A DNA stretch of 64,000 bases from Acidobacteriota bacterium (lineage in GTDB: Bacteria > Acidobacteriota > Vicinamibacteria > Vicinamibacterales > CAVVIG01), in the NCBI GenBank assembly GCA_003222395.1, contig QHWB01000053.1:62001-126000 (forward strand). Direction: 5' to 3'. The stretch's first letter is position 1. Each line of letters opens with the position of its first letter. The notes beneath the pieces are model-generated. The model searched no databases. It saw only the letters and a program-made list of their open reading frames with translations, and had not been told where the DNA came from. Position numbers and translations under genes: made by a program. Positions 32,104-47,798 of this stretch are shown piece by piece.

Positions 32104-33383
32104 GATCGCAGCCTAAACAGTTTCCCCGCGGTCGTTGCGATCTCTTCGTTCTTCGATTGCTCCACGGTTCGGCGCAGCGGCCACCAGATCGCCGCCTCGC
32201 CGATTGCGAGGCTGACGGCCGCGCCCGTCGCGCCCGCGAGCGGCATCAACAGCGCCGATGCGGCGATCTGAATCGCCAGAGCCGCGGCGCTCCACCGCAC
32301 CACGATCGTTTCAGCGCCGGCTGCGTACAGGAAAATCTTCCTTCCGGAGTTCGTCACCGCCGGCAGGAGCGCGATGCCCATCCACATGAGCGCTGGTGCG
32401 CCCTTCGAGAACGCGTCTCCGTACACGAGGCGCAGCAGCGGGCCGGCGACCGCGACGTACGGAATCGCGACAGCGAGCGTTACGGCGACAAGCGCGCGGT
32501 TGAACGATCCGTACGTTCGATGCGCTTGGCGACGGTCGCGGCCGTACTCGCCCGACAGCACCGGCAGCGCGCCGGCGAACATCGCGCCCGGAGCAAGCCG
32601 GGCCACGGTGCCACAGCGCGACGCTGCGGCGAAAATGCCGACCTCTGCGGGCGTCGCCAGGTAGCCGAGCATCAGCGGGCCGACGCGCGCCTGCACGTTC
32701 GCGACGAGTCCGGACGCCGCGAACGGAATCGCGCGCCGAATCAACGCCGCGGTTTCGGACCACGACGGACGCCGAATCGGATCGCGAGCGCCGAAGGCCA
32801 TCGCGTAAAGCACGAGACCCGATCCGATCTGTGCGAGTTGAACGATCGTCGCCAGCAGGACGAGCGGCGAGACGCCGGCGCCAGCCCGCGCCAGAACCGA
32901 CGACGCGGCAAGCTGCGCCGCCGACCACGCCGTCTCGACGATCAGCACCGTCGGCACCCAGGCCGGCTGCGATCGGAACAACGCGCCGAAGCAGCCGTAG
33001 GCTGCGCCGGTTGCGCCGAGCAGCACGCCGAGGCGAATGCCGGCGATCGATTCCGGATCCGCGGCGATGCGCGGCGCGGCGGCGTACATCACCGCGCCCA
33101 GCGGCACGAGCAGCAACAGCCTCGACGCGAGCGCGCCGCCGAGCAGCCGGCCGTGGCACGCGTCGCTGCGCGCGCCGTCGCGCGGCAGCAGGACGCCGAA
33201 GCCGAGATCGGCGACGACCGTCAGCATCGACGCCCACGTCGTGCACAGGACCCAACGGCCGAACCGCTCCACGCCGAGCGTGCGGCCGATGACCAGCGAG
33301 AGCGCGAAGGCGATGGCGCCGCGCGCGAGATTGGAGCCGAGAAACGCGGCGCTGAGGCGTCCGATGCGCGCGAGCGGCCTCAT
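32076..33383 (-). CDS. Polysaccharide flippase, MATE/Wzx-like (1)
   Basis: 435 residues, about twelve transmembrane helices, starting MRPLARIGRLSAAFLGSNLA. It has the usual layout of the polysaccharide biosynthesis (Wzx/RfbX) family: ALSLVIGRTLGVERFGRWVL near the start, paired helices with Arg-rich loops, and PLLRLVYGDAFSKGAPALMW in the second half. It should move lipid-linked glycan across the inner membrane. ATG 33383 overlaps the stop of the amidohydrolase gene by four bases (ATGA). It is the last gene of the coupled minus-strand operon; a second flippase is encoded at 44189. Confidence 0.82.
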   Translation of the reverse strand: MRPLARIGRLSAAFLGSNLARGAIAFALSLVIGRTLGVERFGRWVLCTTWASMLTVVADLGFGVLLPRDGARSDACHGRLLGGALASRLLLLVPLGAVMYAAAPRIAADPESIAGIRLGVLLGATGAAYGCFGALFRSQPAWVPTVLIVETAWSAAQLAASSVLARAGAGVSPLVLLATIVQLAQIGSGLVLYAMAFGARDPIRRPSWSETAALIRRAIPFAASGLVANVQARVGPLMLGYLATPAEVGIFAAASRCGTVARLAPGAMFAGALPVLSGEYGRDRRQAHRTYGSFNRALVAVTLAVAIPYVAVAGPLLRLVYGDAFSKGAPALMWMGIALLPAVTNSGRKIFLYAAGAETIVVRWSAAALAIQIAASALLMPLAGATGAAVSLAIGEAAIWWPLRRTVEQSKNEEIATTAGKLFRLRSQRSLRSVS

Positions 33384-34579
33384 CGAGCCGCGACCCCGGG
33401 TTCGACGATGGAACAGTCGTCGATTCGCCGCGCGAGCGCCGCGTCGGCGACCTTCGGCGCGCCATCGACGTGAATCGGACGTGAACGCGTGCGGCATCCG
33501 TTGAAGATGCCGGCCAATCCGGGATGCGCGAGAATCGGCCGGCCGCCGATCGTCACGAGCTCGACGTCGCGGCGCGCCGTCGCGACGAGCGCCTGTCCCG
33601 GTTCGGCTGCCACGCCCGGGATGACCAGCAAATCGGCCGGCGCGCCAACCGCCACGCGCCCGAGCTGCGGCTGCCGAATCGTCGCCGCCGCATCGACCGT
33701 CACCATCGCCAGGAGATGCGCGGGCGGCACGCTCGACGTCTCGTATGCGACGCAGAGCTCTTCGAGCAGATCGCGGGAGCCGGTCAGACGCGAATCGGTG
33801 CCGATGGCGACGTTCGTCTCCGTCCGCGACGGATCGATCGTCCGTCCGAACAGAAACATGTTCGACGCGGGACACCAGACGGCGCCGGCGCGAGCCGAGG
33901 CGACGCGCCGCCATCCCCCGGCGTCGATCCCCACGCCGTGGACGAGCACGGTATTCGGCGCAAGGCAGCCGAGCGATTCGAGGCGTTCGACCTCGCCGCT
34001 CGCGGCGGCGTCGACGCCTTCGGCGATGTGCACGAAGAACGGCGCCGATGCCGGCGTCGATCGAAATCGGCGCTGGACGTCGCCGCCTCGCTCGCCGCGC
34101 GCCCCGGCCGCCCGATCCTGCAGCAGGAACGAGTGCGCCCATCCGTACTTGCGCAGCACGCGCAGCGGCATGTCGCGGCGCAGCTCCGAATAGAACGGAT
34201 TGTGGTGCGCGACCGTCGTCACTCCGCTCAGCACGTTCTTCAGCGCGCCCACGAACAGTCGATCGCTCAGCGGATGGCTGCCGGCCTTTCGGATCGCCGC
34301 GTCGTCGGCGAGCCGCGGACGCATGTCACCGATCCATTCGCTCGCATTGCCGTACCGGTCGCGAAACTTGATTCGCCCGTAATGATTCAGCTCGAGGTGG
34401 TCGTGCGCGTTGACGAGCCCCGGCAGCACGAACGATCCGCGGACATCGACGACGGCGTCGCCCGGGCGCGGCGGATCGCCAATCGCGAGCACCCGCGACG
34501 CGAACCGCACCGACTCCGCCGTCCCCTCCCCGGTGACGACGCGCGCGTTGGTCAGCGTGACCGCGGACGTCCAGATCAC
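33380..34579 (-). CDS. Amidohydrolase-family protein in glycan operon
   Basis: 399 residues. Metal-dependent hydrolase fold with the N-terminal metal pair in VNAHDHLELNHYG (HxH), then TTVAHHNPF, FVHIAEGVD, LVHGVGID, ASNMFLFG and the catalytic Asp in AIGTDSRLTGSRD; the C-terminal barrel cap ends ADLLVIPGV. It resembles chlorohydrolase/deaminase-type members, and the reaction is probably deamination or amide cleavage. GTG 34579 overlaps the methyltransferase stop (GTGA) and its own stop overlaps the flippase start, so it is fully embedded in the operon. Its substrate may be the glycan precursor; this is inference from position only. Confidence 0.78.
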   Translation of the reverse strand: MIWTSAVTLTNARVVTGEGTAESVRFASRVLAIGDPPRPGDAVVDVRGSFVLPGLVNAHDHLELNHYGRIKFRDRYGNASEWIGDMRPRLADDAAIRKAGSHPLSDRLFVGALKNVLSGVTTVAHHNPFYSELRRDMPLRVLRKYGWAHSFLLQDRAAGARGERGGDVQRRFRSTPASAPFFVHIAEGVDAAASGEVERLESLGCLAPNTVLVHGVGIDAGGWRRVASARAGAVWCPASNMFLFGRTIDPSRTETNVAIGTDSRLTGSRDLLEELCVAYETSSVPPAHLLAMVTVDAAATIRQPQLGRVAVGAPADLLVIPGVAAEPGQALVATARRDVELVTIGGRPILAHPGLAGIFNGCRTRSRPIHVDGAPKVADAALARRIDDCSIVEPGVAAR

Positions 34580-35325
34580 GGCTCTTTTATCGCGTGGAAG
34601 ATCACCACGATCGGCGGGTTACCCCACCGCTTCCTGAACGCGCGAATCGACGGATCGTCGCCGGCGTTCAGCCGCGGTTCGCGGATCGCCTCGACGCGCA
34701 GACCCGCGCCGCCAAGAGCGCTGAGGTGCTGATCGATCGCGTGCGCCTCGAACGCGATGTCGTGCGTTGCGCCGTCGGCGGACCGAAACGTACGGCGCCA
34801 GCCGTGCTCGGTCCACGATGGATGAAAGTCCGAGTAGACCAGATGGCCGCCGAGCGCGAGCACGCGCGCCATCTCGCGCGCCCACGCGTGCAGATCGGCG
34901 ACATCGCCCACCATCAGCGACGCGTTGATCACGTCGAAGGCGCCGCGGCGGAACGGCAGATGGACCGCGTCGCCGCAGATGCATCGCGGGCCTGAAAGGC
35001 CCGCGCCACAGTCGTTCAGACCCGCGCCACCACCGGTGAGGCCGGCCCCGCTGATGATCGTGTGGGGCGGCCGTTTCAGGGCCGCCTTCGATCGTGTCAA
35101 CATCGCCCACGACCGATCGACGCCGACGACGGCTGCGCCCGTCGATGCGAGGATCGGCAGGTACCTGCCCGTTCCGGTACCGACGTCAAGGGCGCGGCGC
35201 GCGCGCAGACGCAGCAGCAGCGGCTCGACGATGGCCTGTTCGGCGTGCATCAGCGGGTTGTGCGCGAAAGCCGGATACGCGTCGGCCCACAAGTCGTACG
35301 CCGTGCGGGAACTGAGCGTCTCCAT
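34576..35325 (-). CDS. Class I SAM-dependent methyltransferase with inserted palindrome
   Basis: 249 residues. A UbiE-like Rossmann methyltransferase: ALDVGTGTGRYLPILA (motif I, about 45-60), VVGVDRSWAML (acidic residue of motif II), then CGDAVHLPFRRGAFDVINA, and ALGGHLVYSDFHP. Between motifs II and III, residues about 84-113 contain three GAGL repeats (ISGAGLTGGGAGLNDCGAGL) that relatives lack; the DNA there holds palindromes (34986-35004, 35066-35086), so a repeat has been inserted in frame. ATG 35325 shares its A with the TGA of the upstream radical SAM gene. Likely acts on the glycan or its lipid carrier. Confidence 0.8.
   Translation of the reverse strand: METLSSRTAYDLWADAYPAFAHNPLMHAEQAIVEPLLLRLRARRALDVGTGTGRYLPILASTGAAVVGVDRSWAMLTRSKAALKRPPHTIISGAGLTGGGAGLNDCGAGLSGPRCICGDAVHLPFRRGAFDVINASLMVGDVADLHAWAREMARVLALGGHLVYSDFHPSWTEHGWRRTFRSADGATHDIAFEAHAIDQHLSALGGAGLRVEAIREPRLNAGDDPSIRAFRKRWGNPPIVVIFHAIKEP
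34986..35086. repeat. Palindromic insert inside methyltransferase gene
   Basis: GCGGGCCT-GAA-AGGCCCGC (34986-35004) and GGCGGCC-GTTTCAG-GGCCGCC (35066-35086) flank a GCGCCAC-rich middle. The whole is translated as the GAGL repeats of the methyltransferase. The same AGGCC/GGCCT palindrome style occurs between genes at 20400 and 25373. Confidence 0.65.
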
Positions 35326-36806
35326 CAGAAACCTGTCGTCTCCGGCCGCTGGTACCGCAACAGCCGGTGCAGCGCCTGCAGCTCGTACGGCGCTGCGTAC
35401 CACTGCAGCGCGTATCGCCAGCCGCCCGCCGCTTTCAACAGCAACCGTCTCAGTCCGGTGAGGCGCGGATCGGTGACGGTCGGATAGAACGCGTTCACGA
35501 CGCGCTCGAAATTGCGGATGCGCCGGCGGACTTGGCGCTGCACCCACGGCAGGCCGTCGCCGCGCCGCATCGACAGCTGCTGCCATTCCAACGACGCCCA
35601 CTGTTCCAGCGTGTCCGGAAATGCGAACCCGCGACGCTGCGCTTCCGAGTAGAGGCCGCCTTCGAGCGGCACGGGCGTATATGCGTAAAGGATGATTTCA
35701 GCCGCCGGATTGATCCGTTTGATGCGGCGGATGAACGCGAAGGTGCAGTCCATGTCCTTCTCGGGATCGGGCGGACATCCGAGCACGAATGAAAATTCCG
35801 GGACGATGCCGTATTCGCGCATGCGGCGCGCGAGCGCGAGCGCGAGCGCCGCCGATGCCCGGCCGCCTTTGTTCATCGCGGCGAGCGCCTCGTCCGACCC
35901 CGATTCGGCGCCCGAGAACACCATCTTCAGTCCCGAACGCGCCATCTTCGTCCACGTCGCGTCGCTGTACTGCATCAACACGTCGACTCGCCCGAGCGCC
36001 CACCACCGCAGACCGAGATTCGCGATCCGATCGCAGAACTCGGCGGTCCGCGCTTCGGAAATGAAGAAGTCCATGTCGTGCATCTGCACCGCGTCGATGT
36101 CGTAGATCGACATCAGGTGCCGCACGACGCGCTCCATCCGGGCGGGCGATTGCGCCAGCCACCGGCGGTTCGACATCGACACGACCGCACAGAAGCTGCA
36201 CGCGAAGGGACAGCCGAATGAGGTGTTGTGTGCCGCCGTGCGCCGGCCGAGATAGTTCTTGTGGATGTACTGCTCCATCTCGACGCGGTGGTACGGCAGA
36301 TCGGGCAGGTCGTCGAGCGGCGTCATCGCGCCGAGCGGGTTGTGGATGACGTGCGCGCCGGCCTTCCACGACAGACCGCTGACGCGGTCGAGTGACCCGC
36401 GCGTCCGCAGCGCGCCGATCAATTCAACGAGCGGCCGCTCGCCCTGGGAGCGGATGACGAAGTCCACGAGCGGCGATTGAAGCACCGTGTCGCTGTGCTG
36501 CGTCGGGACATAGCCACCCCACACGATCGGCACGTGCGGCAGCGCCGCCTTCACGCGCCGGCATACCGACACCGCCTGCGTGAGCTGCGGTCCCGGCATC
36601 ACCGTGACGGCGAGCAGGGCGATCTCCGCGGGCGGAACGGCGGTCAAGCGCGCGATGATCTCCGCCGCCGGATGCGCGGTCAGGTTGCCGTCGACGAGAC
36701 GCCACGGCTCCGATGTGCGCTCGAGGACCGCCGCGAGCGACATCAGCGACAGCGGCAGCGGCTGCTTTCCCGGACTCGTCGACAGCGGATTGAAGAGCAC
36801 GATCAT
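35325..36806 (-). CDS. B12-binding-type radical SAM enzyme
   Basis: 493 residues. N-terminal cobalamin-binding-like Rossmann domain (1-140: MIVLFNPLSTSP, HVPIVWGGYVPT) lacking the classic DxHxxG. The radical SAM barrel follows, with the [4Fe-4S] ligands Cys199, Cys203 and Cys206 in FGCPFACSFC and downstream motifs VFSGAESGSDEAL and FSFVLGCPPDPEKDMD. The C-terminal 130 residues are the helical region typical of this class. Such enzymes often methylate unreactive carbons or rearrange carbon skeletons. ATG 36806 overlaps the preceding stop (ATGA) and its own stop overlaps the next methyltransferase start. Probably modifies the glycan or its lipid; the substrate is unknown. Confidence 0.85.
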   Translation of the reverse strand: MIVLFNPLSTSPGKQPLPLSLMSLAAVLERTSEPWRLVDGNLTAHPAAEIIARLTAVPPAEIALLAVTVMPGPQLTQAVSVCRRVKAALPHVPIVWGGYVPTQHSDTVLQSPLVDFVIRSQGERPLVELIGALRTRGSLDRVSGLSWKAGAHVIHNPLGAMTPLDDLPDLPYHRVEMEQYIHKNYLGRRTAAHNTSFGCPFACSFCAVVSMSNRRWLAQSPARMERVVRHLMSIYDIDAVQMHDMDFFISEARTAEFCDRIANLGLRWWALGRVDVLMQYSDATWTKMARSGLKMVFSGAESGSDEALAAMNKGGRASAALALALARRMREYGIVPEFSFVLGCPPDPEKDMDCTFAFIRRIKRINPAAEIILYAYTPVPLEGGLYSEAQRRGFAFPDTLEQWASLEWQQLSMRRGDGLPWVQRQVRRRIRNFERVVNAFYPTVTDPRLTGLRRLLLKAAGGWRYALQWYAAPYELQALHRLLRYQRPETTGF

Positions 36807-37702
36807 CGCGCGATCCACAAGCCGAACGCCGCCGGCGCCCTGCCGAGGCGCAGACGTGACAGACGTCTCTTCATCCGCCACGCGAGCGGACCGCGCGACG
36901 GAACATAGGCCGGCTGCATCTGCAGCGTTCGCGCCGCGGTTTCGAGCGACGGGAACGTGAGGTAGCCTGCACCGGCCGGGACGATGGTCGCGAGTCCGTA
37001 CTCGAACTGGAACCGGCGCGCCTGCTGGGCCGTCATCGCCTGACCGTCTCCGTCGGAGTGAAACATGGGCGAATCCATCACTACCAGTGCGCCGCCCGGC
37101 GCGAGCATCTCGCGCGCGCGCCCCAGCGCATCGGCGACGTCGTGCGCGTAGTGCAGCGAGCCGTTGAAGACGACGACATCGAACTGGTGCGGCAGGAACG
37201 GCAGCGCGTTGAAGTCGGCCTGCACGATCGGGAACTGCGACGCGTAGTACCGCGCCGCCCCGAGTCCGTCGGCCTCGTCGTCCAGCACGTCGACGGCAAC
37301 GGTGTGATGTCCGAGCTCGGCGAGTCGGTGCGACAGCCAGGCGCTGCCGGCACCCACGTCCAGGACATGCACCGACTGCGGCGCCTCGGCAAGGACGTGG
37401 CGCAGCAAGTGGTGGTACGTCTCGCGGCGGACGCGCCACTCGCCCGCCTGCGGGTGATCCTCGCCGACCGATGGCAGCGTGCAGTAGTACTCAGGCAACG
37501 CCTGACGATGGCCGTCGCCGGCGCGGACGACACGATACTGCGCGAGAAACGGCTCGAGGGCGGCGACGCGCGCCGGCGTCAGGAACCGCCACATGCCGTC
37601 GCGATACTCGAACTGGCGTCCGCACCGCGTGCACCAGCACGCTTCGCCTCGAGGACCGAGGTCGGCCGCGCATTCCGGGCAGGCAAACTTTGGCGTCCAC
37701 AT
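36803..37702 (-). CDS. SAM-dependent methyltransferase with N-terminal zinc ribbon
   Basis: 299 residues. Residues 1-40 form a Trm112-like zinc ribbon, FACPECAADLG and ACWCTRCGRQFEYRDGMWRF (Cys8, Cys11, Cys24, Cys27). A linker with YYCTLPSVGEDHPQAGEWRV leads into the class I methyltransferase core from about 105: VHVLDVGAGSAWLSHRLAEL, VAVDVLDDEADGLG, DFNALPFLPHQFDVVVFNGS and LAPGGALVVMDSPMF. The ribbon-plus-methyltransferase order is common in polysaccharide and antibiotic clusters. ATG 37702 lies 27 nt after the previous gene, in a spacer with GGTTGCTGG- and GCCCCCAGCC-type motifs, the only gap in this operon. Confidence 0.82.
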   Translation of the reverse strand: MWTPKFACPECAADLGPRGEACWCTRCGRQFEYRDGMWRFLTPARVAALEPFLAQYRVVRAGDGHRQALPEYYCTLPSVGEDHPQAGEWRVRRETYHHLLRHVLAEAPQSVHVLDVGAGSAWLSHRLAELGHHTVAVDVLDDEADGLGAARYYASQFPIVQADFNALPFLPHQFDVVVFNGSLHYAHDVADALGRAREMLAPGGALVVMDSPMFHSDGDGQAMTAQQARRFQFEYGLATIVPAGAGYLTFPSLETAARTLQMQPAYVPSRGPLAWRMKRRLSRLRLGRAPAAFGLWIAR

Positions 37703-37712
37703 CTTCGTCGAT

Positions 37713-37748
37713 CTGTCGGTTGCTGGCTCCTAGCCCCCAGCCCCCGTT
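37713..37748. repeat. Short GGTTGCTGG / CCTAGCCCCCAGCCCCC spacer motif
   Basis: Fills the small gap between two methyltransferase genes. GGTTGCTGG matches the hairpin motif at 27847; the C-rich half pairs imperfectly with it. A TTTTT run follows at 37746-37750. It may act as an intra-operon attenuator, though this is weakly supported. Confidence 0.4.
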
Positions 37749-38545
37749 TTTCTGAGCACAATCAGGAAGTGATCGCCGCACGAGCGCGCGCCGGGCCACC
37801 CGCCGATGCGATCCTCGATTCGCTGAAGCACCGCCACGAACGCCGGATGGCGATCGGCAAACGCGTGCATGTACGGAGGAGGCACGAACAGACCGAGCGT
37901 CCGCAGCTCGACGCGCGCGAACCCCGCCGCCTCGAAGATCCGGCTGATCGATGACGGCGAGTAATAGCGCATCCATACCGTGCGGCTCTCGAGCGGGACG
38001 GGAGTCGGCGCGAGTGAAAAGCGGACGCGCATGCGCGCCCAGTCGCGCCGCATGAAGTACAGCGCGAGCTCCCAGGGACAGACGCGCCCGATCACCGACG
38101 CGATCAACACGCCGCCCGGACGCAGCCGGCGGACGATGGCGCGCGCGGCTGCCTCGAGGTCGACGACGCAATTGAGCGGACCGAAATTCGAGCAGGCGGC
38201 ATCGAACGTTGCCGGCGCGAGTCGATCGACCTCCTGAATGCCAAGGTGATGGATGTCCACCCGGTCCGCGACGCCAGCCTCGCGAACGCGGCGTCGCGCT
38301 TCCTCGGTCATCTCCAGCGACCAGTCAATTGCCGTGACGCGGTAGCCGCGAGCGGCGAAGAACTCCTCGTCGGTGCCCGGTCCGCACCCGAGATCGAGCA
38401 AGTGCGATCCAGGCGGCACACGGGCCTCGACCGTCCGCCAGAATCGCTCGCGCATGGCGCGCAGGATGCGGTTCTCGACGTTCGAGTCGTGATACGTCGC
38501 GGCGACGCCGCCGAACGCCCGCTGCGTGTCGATGTCCGCGTTCAC
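37730..38545 (-). CDS. Class I SAM-dependent methyltransferase
   Basis: 271 residues from GTG 38545, chosen because it overlaps the stop of the upstream radical SAM gene as GTGA, the coupling used across this operon; an ATG 48 nt upstream would overlap much more. Core motifs: SHLLDLGCGPGTDEEFFAAR (SAM site), YRVTAIDWSLEMTEEARRRV, VDIHHLGIQEV, FDAACSNFGPLNCV and LRPGGVLIASVIG. The C-terminal half (SRTVWMRYYSPSSISRIFEA) recognises the substrate. Third methyltransferase of the operon, with a different C-terminal domain from the others, so the product is probably methylated at several positions. Confidence 0.82.
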   Translation of the reverse strand: MNADIDTQRAFGGVAATYHDSNVENRILRAMRERFWRTVEARVPPGSHLLDLGCGPGTDEEFFAARGYRVTAIDWSLEMTEEARRRVREAGVADRVDIHHLGIQEVDRLAPATFDAACSNFGPLNCVVDLEAAARAIVRRLRPGGVLIASVIGRVCPWELALYFMRRDWARMRVRFSLAPTPVPLESRTVWMRYYSPSSISRIFEAAGFARVELRTLGLFVPPPYMHAFADRHPAFVAVLQRIEDRIGGWPGARSCGDHFLIVLRKTGAGG

Positions 38546-39582
38546 GACTGCCACGGCGCATGTCTCCACGTTGTCTTCAGCGAACAGACACACTTCGCGC
38601 AGACCGGATCCGATCCGACGTCGAACGATTCCCTGAACGCACGCAGGTTCGTCGCCACGATCTTCTCGAGCGGCATCTCGCGCACGTTTCCGATCGCGTC
38701 ATGGAAGAAGCACGGGCGCACGCCGCCGTTCGCTTCGACGACCACCGACACCCACGGGGCGTTGCACGACACCGGAGGGAACGGCTCCTCGCCGGCGAGC
38801 GCCGAATAGTACCGCGGCAGCCGCCGCAGCTTGTCGGGCGATTCGGCGATGAAGCCGGATGCGAAATCCCGGGCGTAGACCTGAATCGTCCGCTCGATCG
38901 CCGCTTCGAAATCGGCGATCTCCTCGCGGTCGAGCATCAGCGGCAGCGGATTGGGCGGTTCGTCGCGGCCGAAGGCCGTTGACGAGACGTCGGCCGGCAG
39001 AAACGAGATGCCGTCCAGCCCGAGACGGTGTGCGTGATCGATGAGGGCGCCGACCTGCCGGAAGTTCTCGCGCTGCAGCGTCGACCGCGCGGTGACCGGC
39101 AGGCGCGGCGCCAGCTGGCGCAGCCGCGCGACGCCGCGTTCGACGGTGCGCAGCGCGGCAACGCCGCGAATCCGCTGGTACAGCGGTTCGTCGGTCGCGT
39201 CGAGCGAGATGCAGACGCGCGCGAACTGTTCCACCACGCGTTCGGCGCTCCGCTCGAGCAGGATGCCGCTCGTCAGCAGATGCAGCGTGATGGCGCGCGC
39301 GCGAAACGACCGCGCAGCGTCGAAGACTTCCGGTCGCAGAAGCGGCTCGCCGCCCGAAAAGACGACGAGCTGCGTGCCCAGCGCCGACAGCGACGCGGCG
39401 ACCGTGTCGATTTCCTCGAGCGTCAGGTCGCCGGCGCCCGTCTGTCGCCACCAGTCGCACGAGATGCAGCGGCTGTTGCAGCGGCTCGTCGGATAGAACA
39501 CGGCGAGCGGCAGCACGAACGTGCGGTTGCTGATCTCGCCCAGTCGAACCAGCGTCGCTGTCGCGAGGGACGCCGGCGTCAT
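38542..39582 (-). CDS. Radical SAM enzyme with SPASM-type C-terminus
   Basis: 346 residues. The radical SAM cluster ligands are Cys35, Cys39 and Cys42 in TSRCNSRCISCDWW, followed by FSGGEPLLRPEVF and ARVCISLDATDEPLYQRIRG. The C-terminal region carries further cysteines in the SPASM arrangement (VSCNAPWVSV, VRPCFFHD, DPVCAKCVC), able to hold auxiliary Fe-S clusters. Members of this class oxidise or cross-link peptides, or dehydrogenate sugars. ATG 39582 overlaps the preceding stop by four bases. In this glycan operon a sugar or peptide-glycan substrate is plausible, but no precursor peptide was recognised nearby. Confidence 0.85.
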   Translation of the reverse strand: MTPASLATATLVRLGEISNRTFVLPLAVFYPTSRCNSRCISCDWWRQTGAGDLTLEEIDTVAASLSALGTQLVVFSGGEPLLRPEVFDAARSFRARAITLHLLTSGILLERSAERVVEQFARVCISLDATDEPLYQRIRGVAALRTVERGVARLRQLAPRLPVTARSTLQRENFRQVGALIDHAHRLGLDGISFLPADVSSTAFGRDEPPNPLPLMLDREEIADFEAAIERTIQVYARDFASGFIAESPDKLRRLPRYYSALAGEEPFPPVSCNAPWVSVVVEANGGVRPCFFHDAIGNVREMPLEKIVATNLRAFRESFDVGSDPVCAKCVCSLKTTWRHAPWQS

Positions 39583-42317
39583 CGCGGTTGCTCGCTTGGA
39601 ATCGCCGCGGCCTGCGGCGAGAGGAGCGGAACGGTGACGATGGCCGGCAGCGGCGGCGTCATCCGCGCGAGGCGATCGACGCGCCGCTTCAGGAGCGGCA
39701 GCGCCAGACGATGGCGAATCAGCGCGAGCGCGGCCAGTCCGGCCGACGCGGGTCGCCCTCGCGATCCGCGTCGCGTGAACGCGCGCTTCAATCGGTCCGC
39801 CGCACGGTGCGCCCGGAATTCGGCGTGCACGAACGCGTGCAGCGCCCGATAGAAATCGGGAACGTAGGTCGCGCGATACATCATCGCGAGATCGTTGGAA
39901 TCGATCCAGTTCTGTTTCTGTCCGAGCTGCGCCTGCACGCGCTGGTAGAACGTCGTCCCCGGAAGCGGGTAGGACACCGAGACGCCGATGTCGTCGGGAC
40001 GGCAGTCGCGGACCATCTGCAGCGTCCGCTCGATGTCGTCGCGCGTCTCGCCGGGATAGCCGAACTGCAGGAAGAAGCAGACTTCGATGCCGACCGCCCG
40101 CAGCCGGCGCGACGCGCCGACGATCTGATCGACCCGCGTGCCCTTCTCCATCGCGTCGAGAATGCGCTGCGAGCCCGATTCGGCGCCAAGCCACACGGTG
40201 CGGCAATGCGACGCGCGCAACGCCTCGGCCGTATCGGCCGTCACCTGATCCGCGCGCAGCAGGCACTTGAACGGCATCGCCACCCCGCGCGCCTGCACCA
40301 GCTCCGCGAAGCGGTGAATCCATCCGGGTTTCAGGCCGAAGATGTCGTCCGCGAAGCAGAGATGATCGGGCACGTACGTGCGGTTGAGCCACGCCATCTC
40401 GTCGACGACATGCTCCGGCGACCGCGCGTTGTACCGCTGACCGTAAATCGGCTTCGCGCACCAGTTGCAGTGGTATGGACACCCGCGCGTCGTCACGACG
40501 TTCATCGAGAAGTAGCCGTGGCGCCGGCGCCACATCGCCCGGTATCGCGGCACCTCGACGAGATCCCATGCGGGAAACGGCAGCGCGTCGAGATCGCGAA
40601 TGATGTCGCGCGACGACGACCGCCGCAGATGCCCGTTTTCGTCGCGGACGCAGACGCCGGCGATCGACTGCAGGCTGTCGGTCCGCTTCCCCGTGAGGAC
40701 GTCGAGCGCTTCGACGAGTGTGACTTCGCCTTCGCCGGCAAGCACGGCGGAGGCGCCGCCGTCGAGGTACGTCGCTGGATGGTCGGTCGCGTCGGAGCCG
40801 GCGACGATGGTCGGGATGCCGCGCGCGCGGGCGGCCGTAATCATCGTGAGCGCGGCCTGCCGCATGCGCAGCAGGCACATCTTGCTCAAGTAGTTGAAGT
40901 TGTCTTCGTAGATCACGGCGAACCGCGGACGATGGCGGTCGAGCGCGTCGGCCCACTCCGCTTCCGAGGTCGCGAGCATCGCGTCGAAGAGCGCAACACG
41001 ATATCCGCGCTCGCGCACGCACGCGGCCGCGTACAGCGATCCCAGCGGCGCATAGGGTTGCTGCGCCGCCCACAGCTTCGGATCGAACCGGAGGAAGTAC
41101 GCCTGCCCGAAGAGCACGTCCACCGCAGGCGCCGCAGCGGGGCCGGTGGCGTCGGCGCGGGCAGGGGCGGACCGATGTGTCCGCCGCACGGCGACACGCG
41201 TGCGAGCGACCTCACGATAGATGTTGACCGTTTGCCGCGCCGCGCGCGTCCACGAAAACTGCGCCGCACGCGCGAGGCCGCGTGCCGACAATTCGGCCCG
41301 CCGCTGCGGATCGCGCGCCAACCGGACCATCGCTTCGCCAAAGCCGTCGGCGTCGATCCGATCGACCTTCTCGACGGCGTCGCCGCCCACTTCTGCAAGC
41401 GCGGCCGCGCGTCCCGTCACAACCGGCGCCCCGCATGCCATCGCTTCGATGACGGGCAGGCCGAACCCTTCGTACATCGATGGATACACGAAGATTTCTG
41501 CGAGGCTGTAGAGCGCCGGCAAGTCCTCGAACGGGACGTAGCCGGTGAACCGGATCGCGTCGGCAACCTTCGAGCGCCGGATGACATCCTCGAGCCCGCG
41601 CGAGAGCCAGCCGTATGGACCGACGCACACGAGCTGATGCGGCAGTTCGCCGGCGCGGCGGCGCGACGCAAACGCTTCCACGAGCTTCGGCAGGTTCTTC
41701 CGCGGCTCGATGGTCCCGACATAGAGAACGGTGCGGTCCGCGAGGCCGTATCGGCGCCGAACGCGATCGAGCTCCGCCGGATCAGTGACGCGGTGGAACG
41801 ACGGTGCGGCGGCCTCGTGCACGACGTGCACCCGATCCGGATTCAACGCGTACAGCCGAACGATGTCGTGCTTTGCGCTCTCGGACACGGTGACGATGGC
41901 GTCAGCGCGCTTCGCGGCGAGATCGACGAGCGGCAAATTGAGCAGCACGCGCCGCAGCGGGTGATAACGGGGGTACATCCGCAGGCTCATGTCGTGAATC
42001 GTCACGACCGTCGGCGCCGGCGATGCGATCGGCACCATGCCGTTGGTGAAATGCGCGACATCGGCGTCGAGCGCGTGGAGCGCCGCCGGCGCACCGAGCT
42101 GCATCCACACCATGCGCGGCATCTGTCGTCCGGAAACAGCGACTCTGACCGTTGGCGGAAGCGGACTGGTCGTCTCGACATCGCGATTCGAGAGCACCAC
42201 CACCTCGTCGTGCGACGCTTCGCGCGCAAGATGATGCAGCAGATGCTCGGTGTAGTACCCGACACCGGTCCGCCGCGGCCGCAGTGCGGTGCCGTCAAAC
42301 GCGATACGCATGGACAT
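39579..42317 (-). CDS. Fusion: GT4 glycosyltransferase + B12-type radical SAM enzyme
   Basis: 912 residues. Residues 1-373 are a GT4 glycosyltransferase: RIAFDGTALRPRRTGVGYYT, LYVGTIEPRKNLPKLVEAF and E283-x7-E291 in MYEGFGLPVIEAMACGAP. Residues 374-399 are an Arg/Ala/Pro-rich linker. Residues 400-912 are a B12-binding-type radical SAM enzyme: LGSLYAAACVRERGYRV and AGSDATDHPATYLDGGA (cobalamin-like domain), then Cys613, Cys617 and Cys620 in RGCPYHCNWC, and FLQFGYPGETRDDIERTLQM. The linker is encoded by a palindromic repeat (41166-41185). Start ATG 42317 or 42311 overlaps the ligase gene by about 20 nt. The single chain could pass a sugar-bearing intermediate from one domain to the other; it may also be an accidental fusion. 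Confidence 0.88.
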   Translation of the reverse strand: MSMRIAFDGTALRPRRTGVGYYTEHLLHHLAREASHDEVVVLSNRDVETTSPLPPTVRVAVSGRQMPRMVWMQLGAPAALHALDADVAHFTNGMVPIASPAPTVVTIHDMSLRMYPRYHPLRRVLLNLPLVDLAAKRADAIVTVSESAKHDIVRLYALNPDRVHVVHEAAAPSFHRVTDPAELDRVRRRYGLADRTVLYVGTIEPRKNLPKLVEAFASRRRAGELPHQLVCVGPYGWLSRGLEDVIRRSKVADAIRFTGYVPFEDLPALYSLAEIFVYPSMYEGFGLPVIEAMACGAPVVTGRAAALAEVGGDAVEKVDRIDADGFGEAMVRLARDPQRRAELSARGLARAAQFSWTRAARQTVNIYREVARTRVAVRRTHRSAPARADATGPAAAPAVDVLFGQAYFLRFDPKLWAAQQPYAPLGSLYAAACVRERGYRVALFDAMLATSEAEWADALDRHRPRFAVIYEDNFNYLSKMCLLRMRQAALTMITAARARGIPTIVAGSDATDHPATYLDGGASAVLAGEGEVTLVEALDVLTGKRTDSLQSIAGVCVRDENGHLRRSSSRDIIRDLDALPFPAWDLVEVPRYRAMWRRRHGYFSMNVVTTRGCPYHCNWCAKPIYGQRYNARSPEHVVDEMAWLNRTYVPDHLCFADDIFGLKPGWIHRFAELVQARGVAMPFKCLLRADQVTADTAEALRASHCRTVWLGAESGSQRILDAMEKGTRVDQIVGASRRLRAVGIEVCFFLQFGYPGETRDDIERTLQMVRDCRPDDIGVSVSYPLPGTTFYQRVQAQLGQKQNWIDSNDLAMMYRATYVPDFYRALHAFVHAEFRAHRAADRLKRAFTRRGSRGRPASAGLAALALIRHRLALPLLKRRVDRLARMTPPLPAIVTVPLLSPQAAAIPSEQPR
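41159..41185. repeat. Palindrome GGCGGAC-CGATGT-GTCCGCC at the domain junction
   Basis: Perfect seven-base stem at 41166-41185, preceded by GGGCAGGG. Codes for residues 378-384 of the fusion protein (RRTHRSA). Similar to the degenerate GCCGACACATCGGTCG at 26661. It sits exactly between the two enzyme domains. Confidence 0.7.
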
Positions 42318-44142
42318 GTAATCGCTGGTCGTTGGTCGTTCGTCCCTGGTCGTAGGTCGTCAAACGTCGGCGGGGCGTTGATCGCTGTTCGAGGCCCGAG
42401 AGTTGAGCGTTGACGTGGGCGAAGCCGAGCGTCATCGCGAACAGGACGTAGGTCGGCGCGAAGCTGAGGAACGAGTCGACGGCGCCGTGGACGGCGATCG
42501 CGAGGACGGCCGCGGCAATCGCCAGGCTCGCGGGGTTGGCGACCGCCGACCGCGTGACGCGCGCGATCGACCAGAGCAGCCAGGCGAACGCCAGCGCGCC
42601 GGCGATGCCGGCGCCGGCCAGCACTTCGAGGTACATGTTGTTGCTGTGAATGCGAGGATCGCCTGCCGCGAGGCCCGCATACGACGCATACGACAGCCGG
42701 AAGTTGTCCGGTCCGACACCAACCAGCGGACGGGCGGCCGCCATGCGCCAGGCTGCGCGCCACAGCTGAAAGCGGCGGGGCCGGACGGTCGGATGCGGCG
42801 GCGCAAACGTCGCCAGCGCCGTCAGCGGCCGATCGCCGGCAACGACGGCGCGCGACATGACCGGAACCGCGCCGGGCTCGGTCGTGAACCACAGCCGCCC
42901 TTCCTGCACCACGTCCCATACGAGACGGTATTGGCCCGGCTGGCCGGGCGCGCGCACGTGTGCCGCCATCGATACGCGTGAACCTGGCGACACCGGCGCG
43001 TCGAACGCCGTGCGGACGCCCTCGAAGGTGACGATGCGATCCGTTTTCGCATCGAGCCAGTGGTACGACACGTAGAACGGCGGATCGGCGTCGGAATCCC
43101 ACACGATCCGCCCGGTATTGATCAGCGTCACCGGAATCGACGCCGCCTCGCCGTTCGCCATCGAGATGTCGGCGGGCGCGACGAAGGCGGCCCGGTACCA
43201 CGATTCCTGTCCTTCGCTCGTGAAGCGCAGCCACAACGACTGGGTCGACCGCGAGGCGAACAGGAGCGCGCCGATGACCGCCGTCAACGCGGCGATTGCG
43301 ACGACGCCGCGATCGCGGCCCCGCGCGTTGTAGCGCGACGCGCCGACGAGCGCCAGGCTGGCGGCCATCGTGATCAATCCTGTGCGCGTGAACGTCAGCG
43401 CGATCGCTTCGGCGATCAGCACGAGCGCCGCGAACACGGCCGCGGTCCGCCCGCGCCGTTCGGCGTCGAGCTCGATCAGCAGCAGGCCGAGTCCGAAGGC
43501 GAATACGATTTCCAGATACATCGACGCGATCGTCGGGTACTGCAGCGAGCCGCCCGCGCGAACCTGCGCGCCGACGGTGGCGAGCCCGGGCCGGAACGCC
43601 GTCAGCAGACGCAGGACGGGCGCAAGCTGGAGGTACTCGAGCCCTGCGAGGAGGCTCACAACGGCGCCGGTGACTACCACCGCCGCGAGAGCGATCCGCA
43701 GCCGCGCCTGCGTCGTGACGCCGGCGACCGTGAGAAGGAAGACGCCGAACGCCGCGGCGATGCGTCCCGTCATGTGCAGCGCGTTCGTGCGGGAGACCGA
43801 CGACAGCAGCGACGCGACCGTCATTGCGGCCACGAGCGCGAGCCACGGAGCGGTGAAGCGCGTGCGCCACGCGGGCCGGGAGGTCGATGCGATCAGCGCG
43901 AGCGCCCACACGCCGAACGACAGCAGCAAGGCCGCTTCAAGGGTGCTGATCGACTGCGACGGCAGACGAAGCAGAGGACGCGTCGCCTCGAACGGCGTCA
44001 CGAACGACAACAGCACGACGCCCGCGAAGGCGGCATTGGCTCCCACTGCGGGCGTGGCTTCCCCAACCATGTGTGCGGATACGCATGCAGCGGTTCCAAG
44101 AAGCTTGCCACGCGTGCGATGAGGCACGCCTGCTGCATACAT
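42295..44142 (-). CDS. O-antigen ligase/polymerase (Wzy/WaaL family) with lumenal Ig-like insert
   Basis: 615 residues. Ten or more transmembrane helices surround the large periplasmic loop typical of WaaL/Wzy proteins; GVGPDNFRLSYASYAGLAAG and HSNNMYLEVLAGAGIAGALA are the family signatures near residues 475 and 500. Residues about 318-424 inside the loop look like an extra beta-sandwich: SIPVTLINTGRIVWDSDADP, VSYHWLDAKTD, VSPGSRVSMAAHVRAPGQPG and WDVVQEGRLWF, a pattern like the NBR1-type Ig domain. The enzyme should polymerise or ligate glycans from a polyprenyl carrier. It is the first gene of the minus-strand operon, divergent from the flippase at 44189. The tail (from about residue 597) runs through a reiterated GGTCGTT motif. 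Confidence 0.82.
   Translation of the reverse strand: MYAAGVPHRTRGKLLGTAACVSAHMVGEATPAVGANAAFAGVVLLSFVTPFEATRPLLRLPSQSISTLEAALLLSFGVWALALIASTSRPAWRTRFTAPWLALVAAMTVASLLSSVSRTNALHMTGRIAAAFGVFLLTVAGVTTQARLRIALAAVVVTGAVVSLLAGLEYLQLAPVLRLLTAFRPGLATVGAQVRAGGSLQYPTIASMYLEIVFAFGLGLLLIELDAERRGRTAAVFAALVLIAEAIALTFTRTGLITMAASLALVGASRYNARGRDRGVVAIAALTAVIGALLFASRSTQSLWLRFTSEGQESWYRAAFVAPADISMANGEAASIPVTLINTGRIVWDSDADPPFYVSYHWLDAKTDRIVTFEGVRTAFDAPVSPGSRVSMAAHVRAPGQPGQYRLVWDVVQEGRLWFTTEPGAVPVMSRAVVAGDRPLTALATFAPPHPTVRPRRFQLWRAAWRMAAARPLVGVGPDNFRLSYASYAGLAAGDPRIHSNNMYLEVLAGAGIAGALAFAWLLWSIARVTRSAVANPASLAIAAAVLAIAVHGAVDSFLSFAPTYVLFAMTLGFAHVNAQLSGLEQRSTPRRRLTTYDQGRTTNDQRLHVHAYRV
42325..42360. repeat. Reiterated GGTCGTTGGTCGTT motif
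   Basis: Four to five imperfect GGTCGTT/CTGGTCGTA units at the junction of the ligase and fusion genes, translated as TTYDQGRTTNDQR at the ligase C-terminus. Same style as the reiterated motifs at 1919, 27847, 59355 and 60663. Confidence 0.5.
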
Positions 44143-44188: not shown

Positions 44189-45460
44189 GTGGACGAAAGC
44201 TCATTTCGTAACCCGAAACTGAGGGACGCGCGCCTCGTCGCCTACAAGGCGTTCGCCGATGCCGCAGGTAAAGGATCCGTTTTCCTCGTCACGGTCGTCG
44301 CGGCGCGCCGGCTGTCGCCCGAGGCGTTCGGTATCTTCTCGCTCGCCTCGACGCTCGGGTGGATCCTCGCCGTCGCGGCCGACTGCGGCATCCAGTTGCA
44401 CGTCGCGCGCGCAGTCGCACGCACGCCCGCGCGCGCGTCCGGCATTCTTTCGGCGTGGCTGCGCGTTCGTCTGTGGACGACCGCCGCGGCGATTGCGGTT
44501 GTCATGCTCGGCCTTATTGCGACGCAGGCGACGCTCGCGTTCGCGCTGCCGCTGCTGCTGTTCGCGATCGTGTACGGCGGCAGCGGGTTGATCGAGTTCC
44601 TGCACTATTTCTATCGCGGCCTGTCGCGCAGCGACGTCGAATCGACACTCACGCTGTGGCAGCGCTCCGCCACGCTCGTCTTCGGCATCGTCGCACTGCT
44701 GTGGCGGCCGGACGTCGCCGTGCTCGCGCTCGCCATGCTCCTTCCGGTCGCGACGACGCTGCTCGTCAGCGTTTCGATCGCGACACGTCTTGCCAATCCG
44801 CAATCCGCGCTGCGCGGGCGCCAGTACGCGATCGATGGCGAGAGCTTCGTGAAAGAGGTGCTCCCGATCGGCGCCGGCATCGTGCTGTCGGCGCTGTATT
44901 TTCGAATCGACGTTTTTCTGGTGCAGTGGTGGAACGGCACTGAAGCGGTCGCGCTGTACAACGCCGTGTTCAGGATCGTCGAGGCGCTGCGGCTCTTTCC
45001 GGCGGCGGTGCTGGCGGTGGCGCTGCCGGCGCTCTGTACGGCGACCGACCTGCGTCCCGTGACGCGCGTCGCGACGGGCGTGCTGCTGTTCGCGTCCGCG
45101 GCTGCAGCCGTCCTATGGCTTACGGCCGATCGGACGATTCCGCTGCTCTACGGCGAGAGGTACGCCGACGCGGTTCCCGCCTTCCGGATCCTGCTGCTCT
45201 CGTTTCCGCTGCTGTCGCTGAACTACGCGCTCACGCATCAGCTGATCGGTTGGAACGGTCAGCGCGCCTACGCGGCAATCTGCGGCGTCGCGCTCGTCAT
45301 CAACATCGTGCTGAACGCCCGGCTGCTGCCGTCGATGTCGATCGACGGCGCCGCGTGGGCGACGCTGGGCACGGAGGTGTTTCTGACGTGCGGTTGTGTG
45401 CTCGCGCTTGCGACCCGCGGCGCCCGATCGATGGCGGCGACGGCGGGGCTGCCGGTATGA
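44189..45460 (+). CDS. Polysaccharide flippase, Wzx-like (2)
   Basis: 423 residues from GTG 44189, with about twelve to fourteen hydrophobic helices. Family signatures: VTVVAARRLSPEAFGIFSLA at helix 1-2, VLPIGAGIVLSALYFRIDVF at the second half start and DRTIPLLYGERYADAVPAFR. It is only distantly similar to the flippase at 32076, so it probably handles a different lipid-linked unit or acts with different timing. Divergent from the ligase gene with 46 bp between. Its stop overlaps the following start (ATGA), and with the nucleotidyltransferase-fold and NtrC genes it forms the plus-strand arm of the glycan locus. Confidence 0.82.
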   Translation: MDESSFRNPKLRDARLVAYKAFADAAGKGSVFLVTVVAARRLSPEAFGIFSLASTLGWILAVAADCGIQLHVARAVARTPARASGILSAWLRVRLWTTAAAIAVVMLGLIATQATLAFALPLLLFAIVYGGSGLIEFLHYFYRGLSRSDVESTLTLWQRSATLVFGIVALLWRPDVAVLALAMLLPVATTLLVSVSIATRLANPQSALRGRQYAIDGESFVKEVLPIGAGIVLSALYFRIDVFLVQWWNGTEAVALYNAVFRIVEALRLFPAAVLAVALPALCTATDLRPVTRVATGVLLFASAAAAVLWLTADRTIPLLYGERYADAVPAFRILLLSFPLLSLNYALTHQLIGWNGQRAYAAICGVALVINIVLNARLLPSMSIDGAAWATLGTEVFLTCGCVLALATRGARSMAATAGLPV

Positions 45461-46420
45461 CGCGGCACGAGCTCGCCATCGCGCGCACGGTCATCTACGC
45501 GGGGCTGTTCGATTACCCGGTCACGCTCGATCAGCTGCACCAGTCGCTGATCGAGTCGGACCTCACGCCGTCGGAGATCCTCTCTCTGTACGAACGCAGC
45601 GACGCCCTCCGGCAGATCGTCGACTGGCGCGACGGATTCTTCTTTCCGTCGGGCAGGGCCGGACTCATCGCCGAACGGCGGCGGCGCGAGGCGCGGAGCC
45701 GCGCGTTTCTGGAGCGGCACCGTTTCGCGCTCCGTCTCGTCTCGGCAATTCCGTTCACGCGGCTCGTGGCGCTGTCGGGCAGCGTCGCGCACATGAATCT
45801 CGAACCCGAGGGCGACCTCGATTTGTTCATCATCACGCGGGGCGCGCGCGTATGGACCGTGACGCTCGCCGTCCTGCTCTTGACGAAGTTTTTCGGCTGC
45901 CGCCGCGTCATCTGCGCGAACTTCGTGATTGCCGATTCGCACCTCACGCTCGACCAGGAGGATCTGTTCACCGCGAACCAGGTCATTCATCTCAAGCCAC
46001 TCGTCGGCGCCGATGCGCTGGCCGAATTCGCGGCAGCCAACCCGTTCGTGAAGCGGTTCTATCCAAACGCACTTTGCACGGACCGGTCCTGGTCGCCCTT
46101 CGGCGCCACGTTGCCGCTCGATCCCTGCTCGGCTGAGGACCGCGCTGCGCGCGTTCGGCCGCTGCGACCCACGACGGTCGATCGTCTGAAATCGGCGCTC
46201 GAGATCTTCCTCGCGCCGCCATCTCCGCTCATCGAAGCGGCCTGCCGCTCGCTCTACGGCTGGCATCTGCGGCGCCGCGCTGCGTCGTGGCGCTCGCCGG
46301 AACAGGTGTCGCTGCAGAGCGACTACCTGAAGCTGCATACGAAGAGTCATCGTCATTTCATCCTCGACCGCTTCGATCGCGCCGTCGCCGACGCGATGCG
46401 GGAGGTCGAACAGGTCTTGC

Positions 46421-47798
<1,378 letters not shown>

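Follow-up and report, generated by a model that had tools for sequence, protein, structure and literature searches.

Within a 64,000-nucleotide stretch of an Acidobacteriota genome (contig QHWB01000053.1, hereafter the window), one open reading frame (ORF) of 912 codons on the minus strand (39579-42317) joins a GT4 glycosyltransferase to a B12-binding radical SAM enzyme, both complete, and a short palindromic repeat lies in the linker between them. We think it highly probable that this gene stems from one old fusion of coupled neighbours, followed by independent in-frame gain of host-specific repeats in a tolerant linker, and that its product is a genuine two-enzyme protein. As judged from the comparison of relatives, the fusion is older than the repeats that now occupy its linker. 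A preliminary description of the window had proposed that the palindrome could have created the fusion by removing a stop/start pair; it probably decorates the joint instead.

Results

The fused gene and its two halves

The natural start is likely to be residue 3 (MRIAFDGT, 42311), where homologues begin, so the protein probably has 910 amino acids. Pfam places the GT4 N-terminal domain at residues 18-167, the GT4 C-terminal domain at 195-347, a B12-binding domain at 420-537 and Radical_SAM at 607-768. The glycosyltransferase (GT) half, residues 3-371 (41205-42311), falls within GT4 by its scores to PF13439 (55.3, cut-off 28.5), PF00534 (93.4, cut-off 26.4) and PF13692 (93.8, cut-off 27). It aligns with the MshA structure 3c4q over 353 residues (Z 36.5, root-mean-square deviation 2.8) and carries the E-x7-E motif of GT4 enzymes as E283-x7-E291 (41445-41471). 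The radical SAM half (39582-41123) has a B12-binding-like domain followed by a core with C613xxxC617xxC620, whose cysteines are invariant among 41 aligned sequences (PF04055, 69.6). PF02310, the B12-binding family, scores 34.0 against a cut-off of 32.1 when this half is searched alone and 31.9 for the whole ORF; 27 of 27 relatives match both the B12-binding and the radical SAM families, and the fold matches include MgmA, TsrM, OxsB and AprD4. Two specific identities for this half were rejected on NCBIfam profiles, HpnJ (TIGR03471, 135.3 bits against a cut-off of 577.6) and BchE (TIGR02026, 109.7 bits against 481.35). The preliminary description had called the gene a fusion of a GT4 domain with a cobalamin-type radical SAM enzyme, and the fusion is real: both halves are complete by Pfam, five independently assembled relatives carry it, and both motifs lie at the residues given there.

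An AlphaFold model of the fusion has two mostly well-folded halves separated by the linker (approximately residues 372-398, 41124-41204), the core of which (381-394, pLDDT below 50) is predicted to be disordered. No confident mutual packing of the halves was obtained in this model (pTM 0.55), which fits a tether better than a built channel.

Fused and separate forms among relatives

Searching a species-level collection with the radical SAM half gave 226 related stretches, the best 80 of which we retained; among 193 genomes of the class, 22 match at E <1e-100. The same fusion, in one frame, is present in five other genomes of the family, all independently assembled: G023 (locus L075), G021 (L076), G006 (L078), G005 (L077) and G019 (L079). 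The preliminary description had proposed looking for the halves as separate neighbouring genes in relatives, and such genes were found in two: in G008 they are adjacent with TGACCATG between them (gap 68 nt), and in G004 they overlap by ATGA (distance 65 nt). A Chloroflexota locus (L101) also has separate adjacent genes with ATGA (35 nt). All three of these distances are 2 mod 3, and the six fused distances (66-258 nt) are all 0 mod 3; therefore, fusion needed both loss of a stop and a net change of frame.

In a concatenated, outgroup-rooted tree the window and its five fused relatives form a clade (98.4/97; bootstrap 97%), within which the five relatives group apart from the window (97.6/97), and the separate forms of G008 and G004 fall outside, together with another genome, G025. 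Since every fused case with continuous sequence belongs to one clade, a single fusion followed by lineage-specific repeats is the simpler account. No published description of a GT/B12-radical SAM fusion was found in the openly accessible literature, which is in itself weak evidence.

Among the fused relatives, we also observed a second insertion site inside the radical SAM half, at about 40680-40690 of the window (residue ~545), where G006, G005 and G019 carry Gly/Ser/Arg-rich segments of ~14-28 residues.

Linkers built from different repeats

The fused linkers range from about 22 to 86 residues across lineages and are hypervariable among orthologues; within the fused clade they have no repeat in common except between the sisters G021 and G023. 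The G021 linker holds three copies of CGGGTCC-N4-GGACCCG and the G023 linker has the same family, which numbers 445 copies in the genome of G021, 19 in that of G023 and 0-2 in the other seven. The 445 copies lie in 4.5 Mb, often clustered ~30-50 bp apart, and with only 19 in the sister this looks like a recent burst. The G023 linker also contains a 46-nt palindrome, the GGACGGGTCTCGG core of which has 19 copies in G023, two in G021 and none in three others. In G006 the linker carries GCAGGCCTTCAGGCCTGC. This family, GCAGGCCT-NN-AGGCCTGC, has 17 copies in G006, 25 in the genome of the window and 20 in G021, and the linkers of the latter two are without it. The G019 linker contains a G-rich minisatellite.

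Linker sequence has turned over even between sisters at 93% identity, with the frame still open. The six linkers contain no in-frame stop, against 5 and 7 in the other two frames, a result that 0.3% of shuffles reach. The best explanation is that selection keeps the frame open and hardly constrains the sequence of the linker.

Inverted repeats are modestly enriched in the six linkers (8.2 per kb, against 2.3 in the rest of the genes; p 0.006). A role as an RNA structural element was rejected: in the window genome (z 0.23), G006 and G005 shuffled sequences fold just as well as the linker RNA, which stands out only in G021 (z -7.1), as its three repeat copies predict.

The palindrome of the window and its repeat family

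The repeat in the window (41161-41185, plus strand), recognised from genome-wide matches and comparison of copies, resembles a repetitive extragenic palindrome (REP). It consists of a degenerate GTAG-like end (GCAGG) and the palindrome GGCGGAC-CGATGT-GTCCGCC (41166-41185), and its minus strand encodes RRTHRSA. According to the preliminary description, linker residues 378-384 are encoded exactly by the palindrome; it does lie in those codons, but its 20 nt miss one base of codon 378 and otherwise span codons 378-384 in full.

The palindrome is more than a chance occurrence by virtue of its family and not its shape, because GGCGGAC-N6-GTCCGCC has 22 exact matches in the 7.74-Mb genome of the window against 1 for a reversed control. 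Genomes of relatives contain 1-5 copies, compared with these 22. Shape was dismissed as a criterion, as 11 inverted repeats of comparable shape (arms ≥7, loops ≤14) occur in the same ORF. Within the window alone, matches with two mismatches are mildly in excess (6 against 1.7). Searching for the same palindrome elsewhere in the genome, as had been recommended, revealed a dispersed family. Twenty copies extracted from the genome share a form close to GTAGGGGCGGACC-AACG-TGTCCGCC, and the window copy reads GCAGGGGCGGACC-GATG-TGTCCGCC; about half of the twenty have GTAGG at one end (CCTAC in the other orientation), where the window copy has GCAGG. The gene context of these copies was sampled: by a simple codon-usage score most of those examined look intergenic, and a few others lie in open frames (L019, L021, L017, L007), some of them perhaps N-terminal extensions.

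As a possible mobiliser of the GGCGGAC repeat we considered REP-associated tyrosine transposases (RAYTs), but they seem unlikely, as no copy of the repeat lies next to the four RAYT loci inspected. The genome of the window has one Y1_Tnp gene, with no copy of the repeat within ~1.5 kb.

Repeats in other proteins

In a 339-kb sample of G021, 60 of the 72 copies of its repeat fall outside called coding segments, although a simple scorer called about 90% of bases coding, and about ten lie well inside ORFs. When translated, the intragenic copies give Gly/Pro-rich or RVLSDP-type stretches. Several fall between domains: at residue 309 of an ABC-ATPase pair, at residue 498 of an oxidoreductase, ahead of its ferredoxin part, and at residue 388 of a glycosyltransferase; in a MacB-type permease, in contrast, they lie inside a domain.

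A second fusion offers a parallel. In G021 a beta-lactamase-like domain and an M20 peptidase share one 642-aa ORF (L205:17903-19828), with a REP palindrome exactly at the joint. The same fused gene in G023 (L214) is without the repeat, its joint reading GACGCCAGTCAGGCG-TCCACC, so in this protein the fusion exists without the repeat; in other genomes, searches with the protein matched one half only. It is conceivable, though we hold the idea only tentatively and would not favour it, that host-specific REP palindromes generally serve this acidobacterial family as material for interdomain linkers. These palindromes would settle preferentially in frame at the joints of recently fused neighbours, with the linker of one enzyme rebuilt from a different family in each lineage.

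Gene neighbourhood and possible function

The neighbouring genes were assigned by Pfam and synteny unless stated otherwise. Downstream of the fusion, all on the minus strand, are a radical SAM/SPASM gene (38542-39582), three class I methyltransferase genes, a second B12-binding radical SAM gene (35325-36806, assigned also by NCBIfam) and an amidohydrolase gene (33380-34579). The start of the SPASM gene overlaps the stop of the fusion (ATGA), and it neighbours the two enzymes, fused or separate, in every family member examined. The methyltransferases are MT3 (37730-38593), MT2 (36803-37702) and MT1 (34576-35325); of 71 distant loci, 47 have a relative of MT3 next to the radical SAM gene. Just upstream, also on the minus strand, lies a gene for an O-antigen ligase/Wzy-like membrane protein (42295-44070). 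At 42325-42370, before the start of the fusion and overlapping the end of this Wzy-like ORF, there is a GTCGTTGGTCGTTCGTCC-like repeat reading TTYDQGRTTNDQR, another repeat at a gene joint in the same operon.

The plus strand continues with a Wzx-type polysaccharide flippase (44189-45460) and a nucleotidyltransferase-like protein (45457-46461), which has no Pfam match and was named by eye from a GS...DxD motif. Of the 71 distant loci, 60 have a homologue of this protein encoded ahead of the radical SAM gene, and this unnamed family, nearly always beside the radical SAM family in distant loci, would be worth describing. In a Chloroflexota metagenome-assembled genome the same radical SAM enzyme is instead joined to its nucleotidyltransferase-like upstream neighbour in an 853-aa ORF (L153:3945-6503), independently of the GT fusion.

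The operon comprises a Wzy/ligase-like protein, flippases, three methyltransferases, a radical SAM/SPASM protein and a second B12 radical SAM protein; wherever contigs have sufficient length, this set is found largely intact across the family. Judging from family and neighbourhood, from which we also infer the type of reaction and substrate, the fusion is likely to act in surface-glycan or glycolipid modification. In this Wzx/Wzy-type cluster, the GT half would probably add a sugar to a glycan or glycolipid intermediate and the radical SAM half would methylate or rearrange the same intermediate. Most likely the fusion serves to fix two enzymes in one place and in one ratio, for which direct channelling of an intermediate, an option raised in the preliminary description, would not be required.

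Discussion

We suggest the following order of events. In the ancestor of the family subclade, a GT4 gene would have lain directly before a B12-type radical SAM gene, with stop and start overlapping or two bases apart. The two would then have been joined by loss of the stop together with a net change of frame; the states before and after come from the comparison of relatives, and we infer the exact event. The resulting tolerant linker would repeatedly have taken up, in frame, its host's own minisatellites and short palindromes of the REP type. The GGCGGAC repeat would be the example from the genome of the window, a late passenger. An older repeat, since erased, may have taken part in the founding event.

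Several observations weigh against this order. Only six lineages are fused, and two of them are close sisters. The G005 linker yielded no palindrome whose arms reach 7. G025 (L080) is open across the joint and yet sits among the separate forms in the tree, which leaves room for a second fusion or a re-split in its lineage; its linker contains ten N, a scaffold gap, and we left it out of the fused count. Finally, in the genome of the window a GTG at 41121-41123 marks the exact natural start of the radical SAM half and could start a separate protein.

The finding that most lineages have a repeat of their own at the joint could also mean that the same neighbours fused several times, each time when a different host repeat hit the stop/start overlap, and the possibly fused G025 would agree with this. 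We nevertheless regard it as unlikely, since several parallel, frame-correct events would be needed in a clade without any separate member and the G005 linker is without a clear palindrome.

We consider it very unlikely that the repeat made the fusion, a possibility raised in the preliminary description; in this reading, a GGCGGAC element landing at the 3' end of the GT gene would have abolished the stop codon and shifted the frame, so joining the radical SAM gene. The element does lie at the joint and belongs to a dispersed repeat, an insertion could supply the net +1 mod 3 change required to join the separate forms, and REPs often adjoin the 3' end of the upstream ORF (PMC3733652). However, the finding named in advance as speaking against a repeat origin, the same fusion with unrelated linkers in relatives, turned up: five relatives, in one clade with the window, are fused without the element, and a repeat origin would require its loss and replacement in all the other lineages. 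The parallel beta-lactamase-like/M20 fusion likewise exists, in G023, without the repeat.

Still harder to credit is the absence of any functional fusion, in which case GC-rich DNA would have kept the frame open by chance and internal initiation would yield the two enzymes separately. Besides the GTG just mentioned, G023 has an ATG near the start of the radical SAM half. However, the fused forms have no internal radical SAM start codon in common, G021 and G006 being without an in-frame ATG, GTG or TTG near that point, and all six linkers are 0 mod 3 and free of stops despite rapid turnover of their sequence. An assembly or binning artefact at the repeat is a negligible prospect: assemblies do break at repeats, and the N gap of G025 falls there, but the fusion recurs, with linkers that differ, in five separately assembled relatives, and gene order in the operon is shared throughout the family.

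A single early fusion with later repeats gives an ordered series for a natural enzyme fusion, from overlapping genes through one fused frame to repeat-built linkers. The natural variants of this two-enzyme protein, with their wide range of linker lengths, make linker tolerance directly testable. They also carry a warning, namely that finding a repeat where two genes are fused is no evidence that it caused their fusion.

Each half has known counterparts. The GT half resembles retaining GT4 enzymes (MshA, BshA, PimA, PimB') in its GT-B fold, which extends over the whole half, and in its E-x7-E motif, but it is ~22% identical to MshA. The other half shares with cobalamin-dependent radical SAM enzymes (MgmA 9ccb, TsrM, OxsB, CysS, TokK) a B12-binding-like domain followed by a CxxxCxxC core, and Foldseek matches it to MgmA, TsrM and OxsB; its identity to them is only ~20%, and by profile it is neither HpnJ nor BchE.

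Palindromes translated in frame within conserved proteins, and apparently tolerated there, are also known as Rickettsia palindromic elements, although these are of other sequence and, at 105-146 bp, longer than the linker repeats described here, at ~20-46 bp (PMC2229807). The closer parallel is with the GTAG/CGTC REPs, for which intragenic copies have already been described, as have different REPs near one recB site in two Xanthomonas species (PMC3733652). Like those, the repeats described here are short dispersed palindromes, mostly intergenic and in a minority of cases in frame within ORFs, and many GGCGGAC copies have a one-sided GTAG-like tag. They differ in that the tag of the window copy is degenerate (GCAGG), that they sit where two formerly neighbouring genes have been fused into one two-enzyme protein, and that at least four unrelated repeat families and a minisatellite occupy this joint in sister lineages. 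Intragenic REPs are thus known already, and the convergence of several families on one inter-enzyme joint is the unusual part.

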